DNA of 64,000 bases from a virus. The position numbers and the translations under genes are program-made. Where the stretch lies: the IMG/VR virus record IMGVR_UViG_3300048687_000087, positions 1 through 64,000 of that record; one strand, 5' to 3'. Below, one piece after another: positions 16,118 to 26,832 of the stretch (position 1 is the first letter of the stretch; each line of letters opens with the position of its first letter). The notes beneath the pieces were generated by a model, which made no database searches, was not told the DNA's origin, and saw nothing but the letters and a program-made list of their open reading frames with translations.

Positions 16118-16330
16118 ATGCGGCCCCTATTGCTCCTGCTCGTGGCGGCTGTCCTCGCGCTATTCGGTAAATGCCCGGAAGCTGTCACGGCCCTCGGTGC
16201 TACGGCCGGCCTCATCTTCGGAGGCCTCCTTCACGTACTCGCCGAGCCCGCCCTCCTCGCCGCCATCGGCGCCGGCCTGGCCATCACCGTCATCCGCGCC
16301 GGACGGGCGCACGCACGAGAGGCCCATTGA
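16118..16330 (+). CDS. Two-TM Spd-like protein, 70 aa
   Basis: GAGAGGAGG precedes ATG 16118. Two hydrophobic segments (LLLLLVAAVLALFG and GLLHVLAEPALLAAIGAGLA) are separated by a short loop with one Cys, and a basic tail follows. Small membrane proteins of this kind directly upstream of spdB and tra help spread DNA between mycelial compartments in Streptomyces plasmids. The role is inferred from position. Confidence 0.65.
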   Translation: MRPLLLLLVAAVLALFGKCPEAVTALGATAGLIFGGLLHVLAEPALLAAIGAGLAITVIRAGRAHAREAH

Positions 16331-16404
16331 TGCGCGCGCTCTACCTGCTCGCCATGTTCTTCCCGCTGATCCTGCTCGCCTTCCTCCTCGGACGAGGTTT
16401 CTAG
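16330..16404 (+). CDS. Membrane micropeptide, 24 aa
   Basis: ATG 16330 overlaps the previous TGA, and its own stop overlaps GTG 16404. The peptide MRALYLLAMFFPLILLAFLL plus a short basic end is one transmembrane helix. Tight coupling on both sides supports translation. It probably belongs to the Spd membrane complex. Confidence 0.6.
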   Translation: MRALYLLAMFFPLILLAFLLGRGF

Positions 16405-17228
16405 TGAACGCTCCACCGTCCCGCATCGGTTGGGATCCGCTCGTTGCGGTGTCCCTGATTGCCGGTGTCGGGTTCACGGCGATCGCCGAGTACCAGCTCG
16501 CCAGAACAATCGGCGCGCCCGTCCCGGTGGCGGTACTCCTGCCCGTCGCCCTCGACGTGTACGTCGTCGCTGCGATCCGTCGCTCCCGCGGCCGGGACAT
16601 CGCCCTCGCGCTCCTGTTGATGGGCGTCGCGCAGGTGTCAGCGCACATGCTCGAAGCCGGCGTCGTGGAGATCTCAGTACCGCTCGTCGCCGCCGTGTCG
16701 GTACTAGTACCGCTCGTCATCTGGCGAGTGCACGCACTGGCGGTACTGCCCGACAAGCAGCACGTGAAATCCGGTACCAAAGCGGGGGTCGCCGAGCATC
16801 CGGTACCGGATGCCACCGTCGAGCGAGTACCGGCACCGGAGACCGTCGCAGTACCGGATGCCGACCCGGTCCCGGTACCGGCTGCGAGCCGCCCGGAACT
16901 CGAAGCCGTACCGGAGTCAGTACCGGACCCGGTACCGGTACGGCCGCGTCGCCGCACCAGCAAGAGGACCGGGCGCAGTTCCGCCCCCAAGGCCCGCCCC
17001 AAGAAGACCGGTACTGCCTCGTTCGACGAGCACGTCCGTACCGCCATCGACTGGCTCGCCGACGACCCGACCCTGTCCGGTACCGCCATCGGCAAGAAGC
17101 TCGGTACCGGCGACTCCTACGGCCGGCGCGTCCGCCGCGAAGCCCTCGCCCAAGCCGGTACCGAACCGGCTCCTGGCCCCGAGCACCGGGACCACGACAG
17201 CAACGTCCCGACCCTCACCGGAAGCTGA
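16404..17228 (+). CDS. SpdB-like spread protein with DNA-motif-rich coding sequence, 274 aa
   Basis: Residues about 10-115 contain four hydrophobic segments (DPLVAVSLIAGVGFTAIAEY, VAVLLPVALDVYVVAAI, ALALLLMGVAQVSAHM, VPLVAAVSVLVPLVI). A Val/Pro-rich linker follows, then a basic region and a C-terminal winged-helix-like segment (FDEHVRTAIDWLADDPTLSG). This is the SpdB layout next to traB, where SpdB proteins bind DNA and membrane. The gene holds about 25 GTACCG/CGGTAC hexamers, encoding V-P in one frame and G-T or R-T in another. Confidence 0.8.
   Translation: MNAPPSRIGWDPLVAVSLIAGVGFTAIAEYQLARTIGAPVPVAVLLPVALDVYVVAAIRRSRGRDIALALLLMGVAQVSAHMLEAGVVEISVPLVAAVSVLVPLVIWRVHALAVLPDKQHVKSGTKAGVAEHPVPDATVERVPAPETVAVPDADPVPVPAASRPELEAVPESVPDPVPVRPRRRTSKRTGRSSAPKARPKKTGTASFDEHVRTAIDWLADDPTLSGTAIGKKLGTGDSYGRRVRREALAQAGTEPAPGPEHRDHDSNVPTLTGS
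16531..17163. repeat. GTACCG/CGGTAC hexamer cluster, candidate clt/TRS
   Basis: On the + strand GTACCG occurs at 16677, 16707, 16803, 16827, 16851, 16875, 16908, 16920, 16932, 17038, 17080, 17104 and 17158. Its complement CGGTAC occurs at 16531, 16699, 16741, 16772, 16801, 16873, 16930, 16936, 17009, 17078, 17102 and 17156. Further copies lie at 17383 and 17464 in traB. The motif is kept in different reading frames, so selection on DNA is likely. TraB proteins recognise clustered short repeats near tra, so this may be the transfer locus. Confidence 0.6.
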
Positions 17229-17231
17229 CCC

Positions 17232-19367
17232 ATGACCACGACCGAGCCGATAACCGAGGTCGAAGAACGGCCTCTCAAGCTGGTCAAGCCGCCCGCCACC
17301 GAGACGCCCACGAAGACCCGTGCCGAGCGGCAGCGACTACGCCGCCTCAAGGCTGTGCTCGCCGACGAGCGCACCCGCGACGTGTACCGGCTCGCCGTCC
17401 GCCACGGCGCTTACGTTGCGGGCGGCGCCCGGATCATCACCCGCCGCGGATGGGACGACCGCAGTACCGCCCGCTACCAGCGGATGATCCGCACCGCTGA
17501 AGCCGCAGGGAACCGTGAACTCGCCGCCGACTGGGAAGAGCGCGCCCACCGGTTCCGGCAAGCACGCCACCAGCGCCGCATGGACCTCCTCACTTCCATG
17601 CGCAACGCGCCCAAAGCCGTCGGAGCCGGTGCCCTCACCGGCACGGGACTGCTCGCCGTCACCGGGATCGCCATCGCCGTCGCCAACAAGAACATCGCCG
17701 ACATACTGCTGCCCTTCGAGTTCGTCATCGGCATCGTGAGCTGGGCATACGTCATCGCCAGCGTGGTGTGGGCGACCGTGAAGCTCGCAGGCCCCAGCCT
17801 GGCTGTGCTCGCCCTGTGGAACCTCGGACGCCAGCGGCAGGCGGCCCCGGCGTGGGCGCTGCCGGAGAAACTCCGCACTGACGGAGGCCCGATCACCCCG
17901 TCGATCGTGGTGAAAGCCTTCCGTGACCTGCGGATTAGCGACCTGAAGAAGGCCATCCTGGACATGGAGGATGGCGGCGCATCCATGCTGTCGCCGATCG
18001 TCATCGCAGGCTGCGGCGTCGAAGTCGACGTCACCTTGCCGTCCAGCGTCTCCACCGACGAGATCGAGGCAAAGCGGCGCAAGCTCGCCGAGAACCTCAA
18101 CCGGCACGAGCACGAGCTGTACATTTCTGTCGCTCCGCAGCCGCGGACGGTGAAGCTGTGGATCGCCGACTCCGGTGCTCTCGACGAGCCGATCGGGCCG
18201 TCGCCGCTGGTCACAGACCCTGGCATGACCGCCGACTACAAGACCGGTCGTGCACCGTGGGGTGTCGACCTGCGCGGCGACGCCGTGTTGATGAGCCTGT
18301 TCCAGAAGATGGTGCTGGTCACGGGCCTGTCCAACCAGGGGAAGACGGCATCGTTGCGGGCCCTGGCTCTGTGGCTGGCTTTCGACCCGTCCGTCGAGTT
18401 CCGTATCGGTGACCTCAAGGGCATCGGCGACTGGCGAATGTTCGTCGGCCTCGCCACCGTCGTGATCGAGGGGCCGACGGACGAGCACGTCATGGACGTC
18501 ACGCACATGGTCGAGGACGGGTTCGAGGAGATGAACCGGAGGCTGCAGGCCCCCGAGGGCACTGTGTTCAAACCGCTGGTCATCATCGTTGACGAGGCGC
18601 AGGTCGCCTACGGGTCGGGTGCCCGGGAGACCTATGTGACGGACAACGGGACCGTGAAGTTCGGGGCACCTTACGGCGGGTCCAAGAGCACGAGCAGGTA
18701 CTTCCGGGCCGTCAAGGGCATCCACGACCAGGGCCGCGCCGTCAACGTGCTGATCTGGGAAGGCACCCAGGACCCGACGAACGAAAACCTGCCCAAGCGG
18801 TCCCGCGAGGGCAACCACATCCGGGCAGCGCTGGTCCTCGGCACCAAGTCCCAGGCCGAGATGGCGCTCGGCGAGGCGCCCGTAGAGAAGGGCGCCGCAC
18901 CGCACAAGCTGCGGCAGGGCTTCGACAAGGGACAACTCGTAGCCGCAGGTGAGGGCGTCCCGCTGGCCCCCGGCCAGGTGTCGCTGAACGTGCGCACGCA
19001 CTACATCAGCAACGACGACGCGAAGGAAGTCGCGGACCGGGCCAAGGCGCTGCGCAGGAAGGTCACCACGCTGCACAAGCTGGAGCCCGTCGAGGAACTG
19101 GACCCGCTGGCCGACATCGCAATCGTCATTGGCAGTACGGCGCGCATGCGGACGCAGGAAGTCCTTCAACTGCTGGCGGAACGCAACCCGGCTGGCTACC
19201 GAGAGTGGACGTTCCAGGACCTGAAGGAGGCCCTGGGAGTCGTCGACGCAGCCCCGCACAAGAGCGACGGGCAGATGGTCGTGGACCAACAGAAGGTCCA
19301 ACGGGCCCTCGCCGAACGCGACTCCAAGGACCAGGGAGGCGAGAAGAAGACAGGGAGTTCTCCCTGA
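17232..19367 (+). CDS. traB: FtsK/SpoIIIE-type conjugal DNA translocase TraB/TraSA, 711 aa
   Basis: Two transmembrane segments lie near residues 131-150 and 163-183. The motor has Walker A GLSNQGKT (365-372) and Walker B LVIIVDE (449-455), followed by DEAQVAYGSG. The C-terminal 75 residues form a winged helix (MRTQEVLQLLAERNPAGYRE, then WTFQDLKEALG) like the domain that reads TRS repeats in pSVH1 TraB. Such hexameric motors move double-stranded plasmid DNA between hyphae without a relaxase. ATG 17232 follows spdB by 3 nt. No rep gene follows, unlike in AICEs. Confidence 0.92.
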   Translation: MTTTEPITEVEERPLKLVKPPATETPTKTRAERQRLRRLKAVLADERTRDVYRLAVRHGAYVAGGARIITRRGWDDRSTARYQRMIRTAEAAGNRELAADWEERAHRFRQARHQRRMDLLTSMRNAPKAVGAGALTGTGLLAVTGIAIAVANKNIADILLPFEFVIGIVSWAYVIASVVWATVKLAGPSLAVLALWNLGRQRQAAPAWALPEKLRTDGGPITPSIVVKAFRDLRISDLKKAILDMEDGGASMLSPIVIAGCGVEVDVTLPSSVSTDEIEAKRRKLAENLNRHEHELYISVAPQPRTVKLWIADSGALDEPIGPSPLVTDPGMTADYKTGRAPWGVDLRGDAVLMSLFQKMVLVTGLSNQGKTASLRALALWLAFDPSVEFRIGDLKGIGDWRMFVGLATVVIEGPTDEHVMDVTHMVEDGFEEMNRRLQAPEGTVFKPLVIIVDEAQVAYGSGARETYVTDNGTVKFGAPYGGSKSTSRYFRAVKGIHDQGRAVNVLIWEGTQDPTNENLPKRSREGNHIRAALVLGTKSQAEMALGEAPVEKGAAPHKLRQGFDKGQLVAAGEGVPLAPGQVSLNVRTHYISNDDAKEVADRAKALRRKVTTLHKLEPVEELDPLADIAIVIGSTARMRTQEVLQLLAERNPAGYREWTFQDLKEALGVVDAAPHKSDGQMVVDQQKVQRALAERDSKDQGGEKKTGSSP

Positions 19368-19454
19368 GGGCCTCCCTGAGGCGCCTGACCCCATCTGACC
19401 AGCACGAATCGCTCTTTCAGGGAGGCAGGGAGGCGCTCGCAGCCTCCCTGAAAG
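19332..19454. repeat. CAGGGAG/CTCCCTG cluster with 13-bp inverted repeat
   Basis: Seven copies of CAGGGAG or its complement lie at 19332, 19351, 19360, 19372, 19418, 19426 and 19444. CTTTCAGGGAGGC (19414-19426) and GCCTCCCTGAAAG (19442-19454) form a perfect 13-bp inverted repeat. The cluster spans the end of traB and the gap after it. It could be a second transfer or plasmid-function site, or an mRNA structure. Confidence 0.55.
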
Positions 19455-19530: not shown

Positions 19531-20271
19531 ATGCCATGCGTAGCCCACGACGAAGACCGACCCTGCGGCCGAGAGACCACCATGACCAGGCCCGTAGCGC
19601 TGTGTCACATCCATCGTGTTCAGGTCGCACTCGCTGTCATGCCCGAGCTGCTGAGCGAACACCTGGCAAGCGCCGCAACGCCACTCGCAATACCGAGCCT
19701 CTTACAGGGGCCCCATGACCCCATCGTCTACTTCCTCGGCCACCGCGACCGCATCAAGATCGGGTTCACGACCAATCTCAAGAAGCGCGTCAACGCCCTC
19801 GCGCTGCGCCCCGGCAGCATCCTGCTGGCCCTGGACGGCAGCGCCGATCTCGAGCAGGCCCTGCACGCCCGCTTCGCTCCTGCGCAGGTCGGTGACACCG
19901 AGTGGTTCGACAGCACCCCAGAGATCCGGCACTACATCGACAACCGCAGCACGTGGGCGCATGGACTGGCGCGGCGAGGGCCGCTGGACAACCAGAGAAG
20001 GCCAACGCTCGAACGGGCCTCGACCAATGCAGAGCGTGCAGTCCTGCTTGCCGATCTGGCAGAAGTTCTAGGAAGCGAGCCTCGTATGCGCACGAGGGAA
20101 GCACTGCAGCGTCTCGTCGAGAACGCGCCGGCCACGTATCGCAGCTGGACGTTCCGGGACCTCACCCAGGTACTTCGGGCCGCCAACTCGCCGCCTCGCA
20201 CCTACCAGGGCTTTCCGGTCGTCGACCGGCAGTCCGTCCACACGGCTCTAGCCGCACAGCAGTCTCAGTAG
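19531..20271 (+). CDS. GIY-YIG (T5orf172/MUG113-type) protein with TraB-like C-terminal domain, 246 aa
   Basis: Residues 1-30 carry Cys/His residues (C3, C12, C25, H26, H28), perhaps a zinc site. Residues about 65-135 match the T5orf172 branch of GIY-YIG nucleases: VYFLG, KIGFTTNLKKRV, E108 and H112 in DLEQALHARF, then EWF. Residues 172-246 align without gaps to the last 75 residues of TraB (RMRTREALQRLVENAPATYR against RMRTQEVLQLLAERNPAGYR), roughly half identical by eye. A nuclease-like head on a TraB-type DNA reader is unusual. GAGGAAG precedes ATG 19531. Confidence 0.75.
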   Translation: MPCVAHDEDRPCGRETTMTRPVALCHIHRVQVALAVMPELLSEHLASAATPLAIPSLLQGPHDPIVYFLGHRDRIKIGFTTNLKKRVNALALRPGSILLALDGSADLEQALHARFAPAQVGDTEWFDSTPEIRHYIDNRSTWAHGLARRGPLDNQRRPTLERASTNAERAVLLADLAEVLGSEPRMRTREALQRLVENAPATYRSWTFRDLTQVLRAANSPPRTYQGFPVVDRQSVHTALAAQQSQ

Positions 20272-20726: not shown

Positions 20727-21251
20727 GTGAACGCGCTGCCCGAGCCGCGCCCGACCACAGTGGCCGGGCAGCCTGGCCCCACCCTGTCCGACTCCATCCT
20801 CGAAGCCGCGGTCGACAAGGCCATCGAGACGGCCCGCGAGGAGGGCACCAGCCCGCAGGTGTTGATCGGGAACACGCCGCACGTCTCACAACCCGACAGC
20901 CGCATCGTGCCCACCTGGGCGACGGGCATCGCGGTCGCCTCCCTCGGAGTTGGCGCCGGAGCGACGGGTCTCGGCTGTGCTGCCTGGCTGCTGTTCCAGG
21001 GGCTGTCGATGGTCAGCGTTCCGAGCCTGGAGCGGTTCGCATGGATCGTCATCGCCCCGTTCGCCGGACTCGCCATGGTCCTCACCGCCGGCGCCGCAGC
21101 CATCTCCAAGGCCAGGAAGGCGACCCCGCGCGAGATCCATAACCACAACAGCGGACCGGTCTTCGAGGACAACCGGCAGGACCACAGCACGACATCCACC
21201 CACAACAAGTGGTGGGGCAGGAGCTCCACCGAAACGGAGGGAAAGCCATGA
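20727..21251 (+). CDS. Two-TM membrane protein with NSGPV-type tail, 174 aa
   Basis: GTG 20727 follows GAGAGGAG. After a polar N-terminus, two membrane segments (GIAVASLGVGAGATGLGCAA and WIVIAPFAGLAMVLTAGAAA) are followed by a basic stop and a tail with HNHNSGPVFEDNRQ. That tail resembles the N-[ST]-G-x-V...DN repeat of the small protein at 14386. Two-TM proteins with short solenoid-like tails are common near Streptomyces tra regions. It overlaps the next gene by 4 nt. Confidence 0.65.
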   Translation: MNALPEPRPTTVAGQPGPTLSDSILEAAVDKAIETAREEGTSPQVLIGNTPHVSQPDSRIVPTWATGIAVASLGVGAGATGLGCAAWLLFQGLSMVSVPSLERFAWIVIAPFAGLAMVLTAGAAAISKARKATPREIHNHNSGPVFEDNRQDHSTTSTHNKWWGRSSTETEGKP

Positions 21252-24648: not shown

Positions 24649-24680
24649 GAAGGGTGTTCATTCTGGAGTCGAGGAGACCC

Positions 24681-25283
24681 ATGGCCGGCCCGTTTCCATA
24701 CCGGAAGAAGAACACGCCCGACCGCGTCCATGCTGCCGAGGTCGTCTTCGAACTCAAGGCGCGCGGCCTGACGTTCGCCGCCATCGACGATCTCACCTCC
24801 GATCCCGACGGCCCCACCGGCGGGCATCGCATTGCCGCCAGCACTGCCCGCGATCTCGTTCGTGAAGAAGCCGCGCGCCGCCTCGACCCGAAGATCGACA
24901 CGTGGCGGGCCGTCGTCCTCGAACGCATCGAGAACGCCCTCCCGCGCCTCGACCGCCTTGAGCAAGTCGCCCTCGGCGTCCTGGAGAAGCACCACATCAC
25001 CGTCAACAACGGGCGGATCATCAAGCTCGACGACGGCGAACCCCTCGCCGACTACGGGCCCGTCCTCGCCGCCATCGACCGCCTCGTCAAAATCGAAGGC
25101 GAACGCACGAAGAACCACGACGCCCTCCGCAAACTCTTCGGCCTCGACATGCCCGTCCGAGTCGACGCCACCATCACCGAAACCACCCAACAGGACATTG
25201 AACTGCAGGAACTCATACGGGAAGCCAAGGTGAGGGTGGCGGGCGAAGAGCAGCAGATCACCGAAGGCGTCGACGAGGCCTGA
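24681..25283 (+). CDS. Terminase small subunit-like protein, 200 aa
   Basis: ATG 24681 has GAGGAG 7 nt upstream. The N-terminal half looks like an HTH (AEVVFELKARGLTFAAIDDL), and the C-terminal half holds helices for oligomerisation (VLERIENALPRLDRLEQVAL). Its place directly before the large terminase and its length fit a small subunit, which recognises the packaging site. The call depends mainly on synteny. Confidence 0.65.
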   Translation: MAGPFPYRKKNTPDRVHAAEVVFELKARGLTFAAIDDLTSDPDGPTGGHRIAASTARDLVREEAARRLDPKIDTWRAVVLERIENALPRLDRLEQVALGVLEKHHITVNNGRIIKLDDGEPLADYGPVLAAIDRLVKIEGERTKNHDALRKLFGLDMPVRVDATITETTQQDIELQELIREAKVRVAGEEQQITEGVDEA

Positions 25284-25284
25284 C

Positions 25285-26832
25285 ATGGTGACCGCGGTCC
25301 GCCCGCGCGGCTATCTCGACGGCCTGGATGCCGAGTCGTTCGACCTTGACGTCTACCTCGCCCGGTTCGATGCCCGCCTTCTCGCCGACGAGGAGGGCCG
25401 GCGCACGCTCACGCGCCTGGACCCGCTGCTGTTTGCGCTCGTCTACGCCCGGCATCATCTCCGAGATCCCGGGGGTCGGTTGACGTTCGGTGACGCGCAC
25501 CTGGACTGGTGCCGTGCGGCCCGCGCCTGGGTGCGGCCAGCGATCACGCCAGCCGAGCAGCGTGACGCCTACGTCGCTCCTCGCAACATGGGCAAGAGCA
25601 CTTGGTGGTTCCTGCTACTGCCGCTGTGGGCTGCCGCCCACGGGCATGCCCGGTTCGCTGCGGCGTTCGCATCGTCCGCGACTCAGGCGGAGACGCATCT
25701 GGGCACGTTCAAGCGGGAGATCGACTCGAATGAACTGCTGCGCCGCGACTTTCTCGACCTGTGCAGTCCCGCGAAGCGGCCGTCGGGTGGGAACGTCGCG
25801 GACACGCAGAACATGTACATCGCGAAGAACGGGTTCGTGTTCGCGGCCCGCGGTATCGACTCGTCGAACCTCGGCATGAAGGTTGGTGAAGCCCGACCCG
25901 ACCTCATCCTGTGCGATGACATTGAGCCCGATGAGTCGAGCTACAGCCTTGACCTGGCCCGCAAGCGGCGCACCACGCTCATCGACTCGATCCTGCCGCT
26001 CAATGTGTACGCGAGGGTGGTCATCTCCGGCACGGTCACCATGCCGGGCAGCATCATCCACCAACTGGTCAAGCACGGTCGGGGCGTCGAGACCGCGGAC
26101 TGGATTGGCGAGGAGGGTTTCCGTGCGCATTGCACCGCGCCGATCGTGCAGCGTGCCGACGGAACGGAGCGCAGCGTGTGGCCGGCGAAGTGGCCGCTCG
26201 CCTACCTCAAGTCGATTGAGCACACCCGCTCGTTCGCGAAGAACTACGCCAACGACCCGATGGGTGCGGACGGTGAGCTGTGGGCGCCGGAAGACTTCCG
26301 CTATCCCGGCGACGAGGGTGTGGATCCGGTGACGCACATGATGCTGTCGATCGACCCGGCGGTCACCGCGAAGAAGGGCTCGGACTATACGGGGATGGCG
26401 GTCGTGTCGTGGTCGGCGCGGCATCGCCGGTGCACGGTGCATGCGGCGATCGGCTTGAAGATTCAGCCGGGCCCGCTGCTGCGGGAGCGAGTGCTGGCTC
26501 TGCTGGATGAGTATCCGCAGATCGGTCTGATTCTGATCGAGGTCAACCAGGGTGGCGATACGTGGGAGGCGATCCTTCATGGCATGCCGGTGAAGGTGAA
26601 GACGGTTTCGCAGGCGGAGAACAAGTTCACGCGCGCCGAGGGGGTGTTGAACCACTATCAGCGCGGCCGAGTCATTCACGCCCGCCGCCTGGTGGAGGCT
26701 GAGCAGCAGATGTGCGCGTTTCCGAAGGCCCCGCACGACGACCTGGTCGACGCTGTGGGTTCGGCGATCCGCCGGTTCATCCCCAACAAGCCGCGCGAGA
26801 TCTTCAAGGCGAGTAGCGCCAGTTACCTTTGA
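25285..26832 (+). CDS. terL: Terminase large subunit, 515 aa
   Basis: The ATPase has Walker A APRNMGKST (98-106) and Walker B LILCDDIE (207-214). The C-terminal RNase H-like nuclease shows D357 (MLSIDPAV), E419 (LIEVNQGGD) and a late acidic cluster HDDLVDA (484-490). The protein pumps DNA into proheads and cuts it. It starts 2 nt after the small subunit, and its stop lies within the second copy of the 17-bp operator. Confidence 0.92.
   Translation: MVTAVRPRGYLDGLDAESFDLDVYLARFDARLLADEEGRRTLTRLDPLLFALVYARHHLRDPGGRLTFGDAHLDWCRAARAWVRPAITPAEQRDAYVAPRNMGKSTWWFLLLPLWAAAHGHARFAAAFASSATQAETHLGTFKREIDSNELLRRDFLDLCSPAKRPSGGNVADTQNMYIAKNGFVFAARGIDSSNLGMKVGEARPDLILCDDIEPDESSYSLDLARKRRTTLIDSILPLNVYARVVISGTVTMPGSIIHQLVKHGRGVETADWIGEEGFRAHCTAPIVQRADGTERSVWPAKWPLAYLKSIEHTRSFAKNYANDPMGADGELWAPEDFRYPGDEGVDPVTHMMLSIDPAVTAKKGSDYTGMAVVSWSARHRRCTVHAAIGLKIQPGPLLRERVLALLDEYPQIGLILIEVNQGGDTWEAILHGMPVKVKTVSQAENKFTRAEGVLNHYQRGRVIHARRLVEAEQQMCAFPKAPHDDLVDAVGSAIRRFIPNKPREIFKASSASYL

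Follow-up and report, generated by a model that had tools for sequence, protein, structure and literature searches.

A T5orf172-type nuclease with a TraB-derived DNA-binding domain in a Streptomyces phage-like element: a predicted Odn-like nuclease directed at rival transfer sites

Introduction

In a virus-classified sequence record, the gene that follows a traB-like transfer motor gene appears to encode a nuclease whose C-terminal part resembles the DNA-reading end of that motor. This arrangement raises the question of where such a nuclease would be directed and whether it would serve the transfer of its own element or act against other elements. The sequence-only reading of this locus held that the protein was aimed at the same sites as the motor and could cut the transfer site (clt) to start transfer, resolve transferred DNA or destroy incoming plasmids with a similar clt.

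Results

Gene content of the element

The window, i.e., the whole stretch of 64,000 nucleotides that was analysed, is part of a 77,412-base IMG/VR record. It belongs to a Streptomyces phage-like mobile element with genes for a terminase, an SPP1-type portal, a major head protein, a tape measure protein, an endolysin and an integrase. The gene order spd - traB - nuclease - (h) - terminase (Table 1) is similar to the one in Streptomyces plasmids of 85-100 kb with capsid genes, in which DUF2637/Spd, A, motor, h, nuclease, terminase, portal and capsid genes follow one another. The window TraB was 55% identical to a TraB-like protein of plasmid NZ_CP108827. Its relatives were plasmid and chromosomal motors, and a search of 50,697 phage records gave no match to it, although the record that contains it is classified as viral. 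This element may be a phage-plasmid whose transfer module is of AICE type. Neither this phage-like setting nor the N-terminal Cys/His motif of the nuclease (C3, C12, C25, H28) had been mentioned in the sequence-only reading.

Table 1. Features of the transfer region and its surroundings (positions in the window)
Feature	Position	Strand	Description
spd-like gene	16197-17228	+	343 aa; membrane segments and C-terminal HTH-like region by inspection
GTACCG/CGGTAC cluster	16531-17163		25 matches inside spd gene, several reading frames
traB-like FtsK/SpoIIIE-type transfer motor	17232-19367	+	711 aa; C-terminal wHTH, wing PHKSDG
Predicted clt of window TraB	19333-19449		7 AGGGAG copies (5 as AGGGAGG), both strands; traB 3' end and traB-nuclease gap
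Chimeric nuclease gene	19531-20271	+	246 aa; N-terminal Cys/His motif, T5orf172/MUG113 GIY-YIG domain, linker, TraB-type wHTH
Putative zinc-binding N-terminal motif	19537-19614	+	Residues 3-28, C3-x8-C12-x12-C25-x2-H28; kept in phage-plasmid and many actinobacterial relatives
T5orf172/MUG113 GIY-YIG domain	19714-19938	+	Residues 62-136
TraB-type wHTH of nuclease	20026-20268	+	Residues 166-246; helix TFRDLTQVLRAA, wing PRTYQG
Small gene, h homologue	20727-21251	+	44 bits to L004 h; in related phage-plasmids h sits between motor and nuclease
Candidate terminase small-subunit gene	24654-25283	+	Called by position; packaging module, downstream
Terminase large subunit	25285-26832	+	Phage packaging module, downstream

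Domains, catalytic residues and fold of the nuclease

The codons of the nuclease gene were Streptomyces-like (GC3 0.77), and a purine-rich stretch, AGGAAG, was present a few bases 5' of its ATG. In Pfam searches judged against the curated thresholds, residues 76-130 matched MUG113 (5.5e-7; 30.5 bits against a cut-off of 22.3) and residues 66-129 matched T5orf172 (9.4e-6; 26.5 bits against a cut-off of 20), which upheld the earlier placement of the protein in this branch of GIY-YIG nucleases. No FtsK-type ATPase was found in the 246-aa protein by Pfam search. Alignment with seven relatives revealed that Y67, K76-I77-G78, R86, E108 and E124-W125-F126 (numbering of the window nuclease) were invariant. 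Y67, R86 and E108 correspond to the catalytic Tyr, Arg and Glu of GIY-YIG nucleases and were intact in the window nuclease; the second Tyr of the YIG motif was replaced in this protein and in all seven aligned relatives, giving IKIG. Cys/His motifs akin to its N-terminus were found in phage-plasmid, Gordonia-phage and Microbacteriaceae relatives.

In the AlphaFold2 model, pLDDT was above 90 for the GIY-YIG core and 88-96 for the wHTH; the linker between them was weakly modelled around residue 155. A Foldseek search against viral models retrieved T5orf172, MUG113 and GIY-YIG proteins at a probability of 0.98-1.00 (best E 2.8e-5). A fold search of the PDB with the whole model gave nothing significant, UvrC GIY-YIG appearing only at E 0.7-1.0; a sequence search of the PDB gave no relevant match, and PADLOC gave none for the nuclease. 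By profile, catalytic residues and fold, the protein is a member of the T5orf172/MUG113 branch of GIY-YIG nucleases, and cleavage of DNA by it is predicted.

Origin of the C-terminal domain

The proposed fusion with a TraB-type domain was confirmed, since residues 134-246 of the nuclease aligned with residues 590-699 of the neighbouring TraB at 42% identity (E 8e-19). As had been claimed, the last approximately 75 residues aligned without gaps, the 3 gap positions in the 113 columns falling elsewhere. A search of 394 Streptomyces genomes with the C-terminal half of the nuclease gave dozens of matches in TraB-like frames of 700-860 aa; therefore, this wHTH is not peculiar to the neighbouring TraB. 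Judged from its sequence, the wHTH descends from a TraB-type motor. A tree placed it within the TraB family, at the end of a long branch (1.46; median 0.13), but did not fix its position there or show whether it stems from the window TraB. By score, the wHTH was equally near to that TraB (72 bits) and to the TraB of L132 (71 bits), and none was nearer.

The sequence-only reading had also suggested a survey for the same fusion beside traB in other loci. No second nuclease with a TraB-type wHTH was found in the phages or plasmids searched, in viral contigs searched with the window nuclease or the A1 query, in the genome collection, in the 394 Streptomyces genomes or in 395 genomes of the class. 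The nearest proteins, those of L154 and L155, were Zn-GIY proteins with C-termini of another kind. Because the window nuclease was the only one found with a TraB-type wHTH, the evidence for mirroring of other motors presented below comes from relatives with another wHTH class.

Predicted transfer site

Known clts are repeat clusters beside or overlapping tra genes, as in pWTY27 (PMC3583192). The C-termini of 87 Streptomyces TraB proteins were aligned together with their downstream DNA, and [AG]GGGAG hexamers were counted in a 503-bp segment across the traB stop. A cluster of at least 5 copies was present at the traB 3' end in 84 of the 87 loci (96.6%; median 9), and 0.12% of 5,000 random segments drawn from related loci reached this number. 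The window cluster consisted of seven AGGGAG and no GGGGAG copies and is probably the clt of the window TraB. Throughout the 77-kb record, GGGGAG occurred at most twice per 300 bp and formed no cluster. The (A/G)GGGAGG cluster in which AICE-type traB genes end (87 loci, e.g., L132-L153 and L165-L228) is a candidate family-wide clt. The 3' ends of L008-type motors had no convincing clt repeat.

The GTACCG cluster, which the sequence-only reading took for clt, is genuine (log10 p of about -25). It lies inside spd, and it was rejected as the clt of TraB in favour of the AGGGAG cluster. In relatives, the clusters in spd genes varied with the type of HTH at the C-terminus of Spd rather than with the motor; L006, for instance, has a motor of the same class as L049, yet it has a TGAGCC cluster and an Spd HTH in common with L229-L231. 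SpdA2 of pIJ101 binds repeats (sps) inside its own gene (PMC4170104). Because the clusters of relatives follow the Spd HTH and because of the SpdA2 precedent, the GTACCG cluster probably contains the sites of the Spd protein itself. Dense clusters of 6-7 bp motifs, with a motif identity that follows the C-terminal HTH of the encoded protein, were observed in DUF2637/Spd-like genes of the window (16531-17163), L004 (2031-2594), L006 (2163-2794), L154 (10042-10408) and L229-L231. These are probable self-encoded binding arrays.

Relation between the wing and the clt motif

The A or G flavour of the clt motif tracked the wing of the TraB wHTH. Wings with D (YKSDG, HKSDG) were paired with AGGGAG, and KSHG and PRKYNG-like wings with GGGGAG. 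Among the distinct helix-wing sequences of A or G class, all 41 with D in the wing went with AGGGAG sites. R in the wing, as in PRTYQG, was present in 6 distinct sequences with G sites and in none of the 51 with A sites, and Tyr in 4 with G sites and none with A sites. A crude per-residue classifier of the wing misassigned 8 of 64 cases in a leave-one-out test, mostly G-site cases.

The window TraB has the wing PHKSDG and an all-AGGGAG clt, and the wing of the nuclease, PRTYQG, differs from it. The nuclease wing resembles those of TraBs with a GGGGAG site, and its T, Q and F were unseen in TraBs. Weak or no binding of its own clt and a preference for a GGGGAG clt are predicted for the nuclease, this prediction resting on about two independent origins of R in the wing.

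Related nucleases of phage-plasmids

The nucleases of L004, L005, L006, L012, L013 and L017 had the Cys/His and GIY-YIG parts in common with the window nuclease and a wHTH of another class, which is the class found at the motor C-terminus of other phage-plasmids. The wHTH of the L004 nuclease was 79% identical to the C-terminus of the pSAM1 motor, the next best match being 43%. Identities of 59% to the L229 motor, 54-55% to the L231 and L233 motors and 54% to the L019 motor were found for the nucleases of L005, L006 and L017, respectively (others 41% or less). At E 1e-3, the nuclease wHTH did not match the motor of its own carrier in L004, L005, L006, L012 or L017; L013 was left out of this comparison, its own motor not having been identified. 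This wHTH class was present in 34 plasmid records; three of the matches were GIY-YIG proteins, most of the others were annotated transfer motors and the rest were hypotheticals. Since there was one match per record, a motor and a nuclease of this class never occurred together in these records.

Seven elements had L004-type motors. Three of them carried the GIY-YIG nuclease (L004, L005 and L017) and one an Mrr nuclease (L237), and no GIY-YIG gene was found in the stretches read of the other three (L238, L239 and L240). Because carriers of motors 72-82% identical to that of L004 have the GIY-YIG gene, an Mrr nuclease instead or neither, the nuclease is an accessory gene and not a required transfer partner. 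The Mrr gene of L237 (8936-9604) occupies the slot after h in which its sisters have the GIY-YIG nuclease, and it encodes a membrane-type protein (Pfam Mrr_cat 6e-20, weak PycTM match). The slot held no nuclease gene in L238 and L240, and L239 had none in the stretch read. The motB motor gene of the NEAU-sy36 plasmid (L240, 2195-4363) matched in three pieces annotated as several hypothetical ORFs and is likely broken.

Several other GIY-YIG arrangements were observed. In L007 (3922-4818), L008 (7359-8267), L049 (8365-9267), L019, L020, L044 and L047, the domain lies behind a membrane-looking N-terminal segment; such genes, located directly upstream of spd in phage-plasmids, represent a second way in which this nuclease is coupled to transfer modules. 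GIY-YIG followed by an HTH was found in L042 (8149-9540) and L015, in L026 (3446-4972) and in L046 (7864-9624); in L042 and L015 the gene immediately precedes traB, and its HTH is similar to the Spd class (..RTVLSR..GYL). An Arthrobacter-like Zn-GIY protein of actinobacterial sequence character in L081 (WNZI01000010.1, titled Vibrio cholerae strain 35D) probably reflects contamination of that assembly.

Discussion

The reading preferred here, with a probability of roughly 0.55, is that the window gene encodes an accessory Odn-like nuclease that its TraB-derived wHTH would bring to the clt of rival elements, where it would cut while sparing its own clt. The wHTH would dock the protein on the clt repeats of competing plasmids or integrative conjugative elements, and the T5orf172 domain would cut the DNA. 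Rivals already present in the mycelium of the carrier, as well as those entering it, would in this way be cut at their transfer loci, presumably to the benefit of the carrier. The own clt would be spared since the wHTH has diverged from that of the own TraB. This reading is favoured because the wHTHs of the relatives match the motors of other elements and never their own, because the nuclease wing differs from that of the own AGGGAG-associated TraB and the predicted target, GGGGAG, has no cluster in the record, and because a T5orf172 domain with intact Y, R and E is joined to a wHTH in a patchily occupied slot. The points against it are that the window wHTH is as near to the own TraB as to any other, that the nuclease gene adjoins the own predicted clt, that the prediction from the wing has the limits given above and that mirroring was observed in relatives with another wHTH class.

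A wHTH of the same family as that of the neighbouring TraB and a gene start about 80 bp past the last clt repeat are what would be expected if the nuclease were a partner of TraB at its own clt, making a nick or cut that starts transfer or resolving transferred molecules or concatemers, as the sequence-only reading had proposed. Such a partnership is unlikely. Transfer by TraB involves double-stranded circular DNA that is not nicked (PMC3218068, PMC12857230), the wHTHs of the related nucleases are unlike their own motors, elements with 72-82% identical motors lack the nuclease or have Mrr instead, and the wing of the window nuclease differs from that of its TraB. Of the earlier proposals, the destruction of plasmids is the one favoured, with the addition that, as the wing evidence suggests, the nuclease probably does not have the same specificity as its own TraB. 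To much the same low degree of likelihood, the gene could be a free-standing homing endonuclease that would cut clt-proximal DNA of gene-less relatives and copy itself beside the cut. Homing endonucleases are common among T5orf172 proteins and lie close to the terminase gene and other essential genes (PMC10448857), and the position beside the predicted clt and the patchy distribution would fit. However, a homing enzyme generally cuts at the conserved site into which it is itself inserted, whereas the wHTHs of the relatives match motors of a different motor class. No gene-less close sister of the window element was found. Homing and an Odn-like action against rivals are compatible with each other.

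Less probable still is that regulation is the main role of the protein, or that it is a degenerate nuclease, so that clt would be repressed or marked but not cut. The replaced second Tyr (IKIG) would agree with this, and I-TevI is an example of a GIY-YIG protein that also acts as a repressor (PMC10448857); however, Y67, R86 and E108 are kept in 7 of 7 aligned relatives, and the motif of Odn is also non-canonical, yet its conserved Glu is needed for function (PMC8263062). A role in phage packaging with the terminase, like that of the HK97 HNH protein, is suggested by the position of the nuclease gene directly before the terminase genes in L004, L005, L006, L012, L013 and L017. It is nevertheless very improbable for the window nuclease, considering that the window terminase is 4-5 kb away, that many elements of the same capsid family have no nuclease gene and that the wHTH is that of transfer motors.

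The closest precedent for an Odn-like nuclease directed at rivals is Odn itself (ICP1 Gp88), a phage nuclease that borrows the origin-binding domain of its rival, its RepA_N being 42% identical to the RepA of the target (PMC8263062). Three coliphage Odn-like nucleases mirror different satellites (PMC8263062, PMC10448857). Odn and these T5orf172-RepA_N proteins are likewise chimeric T5orf172 nucleases with a DNA-binding domain about 40% identical to the initiator of another element. Fusion of T5orf172 to a domain homologous to the site-specific protein of another element was found here as well, with the TraB family in the window and with rival motors, at up to 79% identity, in the relatives. 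In contrast to Odn, the window nuclease has its DNA-binding domain from a conjugative DNA motor and not from a replication initiator, so its predicted target is a transfer site. It also has the reversed domain order (nuclease first), a Zn-like N-terminus and a Streptomyces setting, and its role against rivals is a proposed one. Because it has a TraB wHTH instead of a RepA_N origin-binding domain, it was not assigned to Odn.

The C-terminal wHTHs of Streptomyces TraB proteins (pSVH1, pIJ101 and AICE TraB) belong to the same family and read short clt repeats; in pSVH1 TraB, helix alpha-3 is part of the clt-reading wHTH (PMC3583192). Unlike these motors, the window protein has a nuclease in place of the ATPase and membrane parts. 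I-TevI and the T5orf172/GIY-YIG homing endonucleases are likewise modular, with GIY-YIG, a Zn-type segment and a C-terminal HTH, but the window wHTH can be traced to a plasmid transfer motor, and homing by the window nuclease is a minor possibility. Actinobacterial Zn-GIY proteins (chromosomes of Microbacteriaceae and Micrococcaceae, Gordonia phages) have the same Cys/His N-terminus and GIY-YIG core, but they are about 170-200 aa long and have no C-terminal wHTH.

A search of an open literature library found no paper combining GIY-YIG, Streptomyces, TraB and conjugation. Odn itself is known; what is new here is the domain of a conjugation motor where Odn has that of a replication initiator. 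It is conceivable, at somewhat less than even odds, that Streptomyces phage-plasmids are engaged in a clt-directed arms race, in which the DNA-reading ends of rival motors were repeatedly grafted onto a T5orf172 nuclease and the wing was retuned so that the own clt is spared. These proteins would then be the first class of conjugation-directed nucleases. On this assumption, the pSAM1-like motor end should send the L004 nuclease to the clt of pSAM1. The wing is a candidate specificity code, which bears on how TraB picks plasmid and chromosomal DNA, and (A/G)GGGAGG at the traB 3' end may be the clt motif throughout a large TraB family. If the proposed action against rivals is true, chimeric nucleases that borrow the DNA-binding domain of a rival, already described against replication origins (Odn), would have a new class of target in conjugation sites, and the mutual exclusion of phage-plasmids, AICEs and conjugative plasmids in Streptomyces would be explained.
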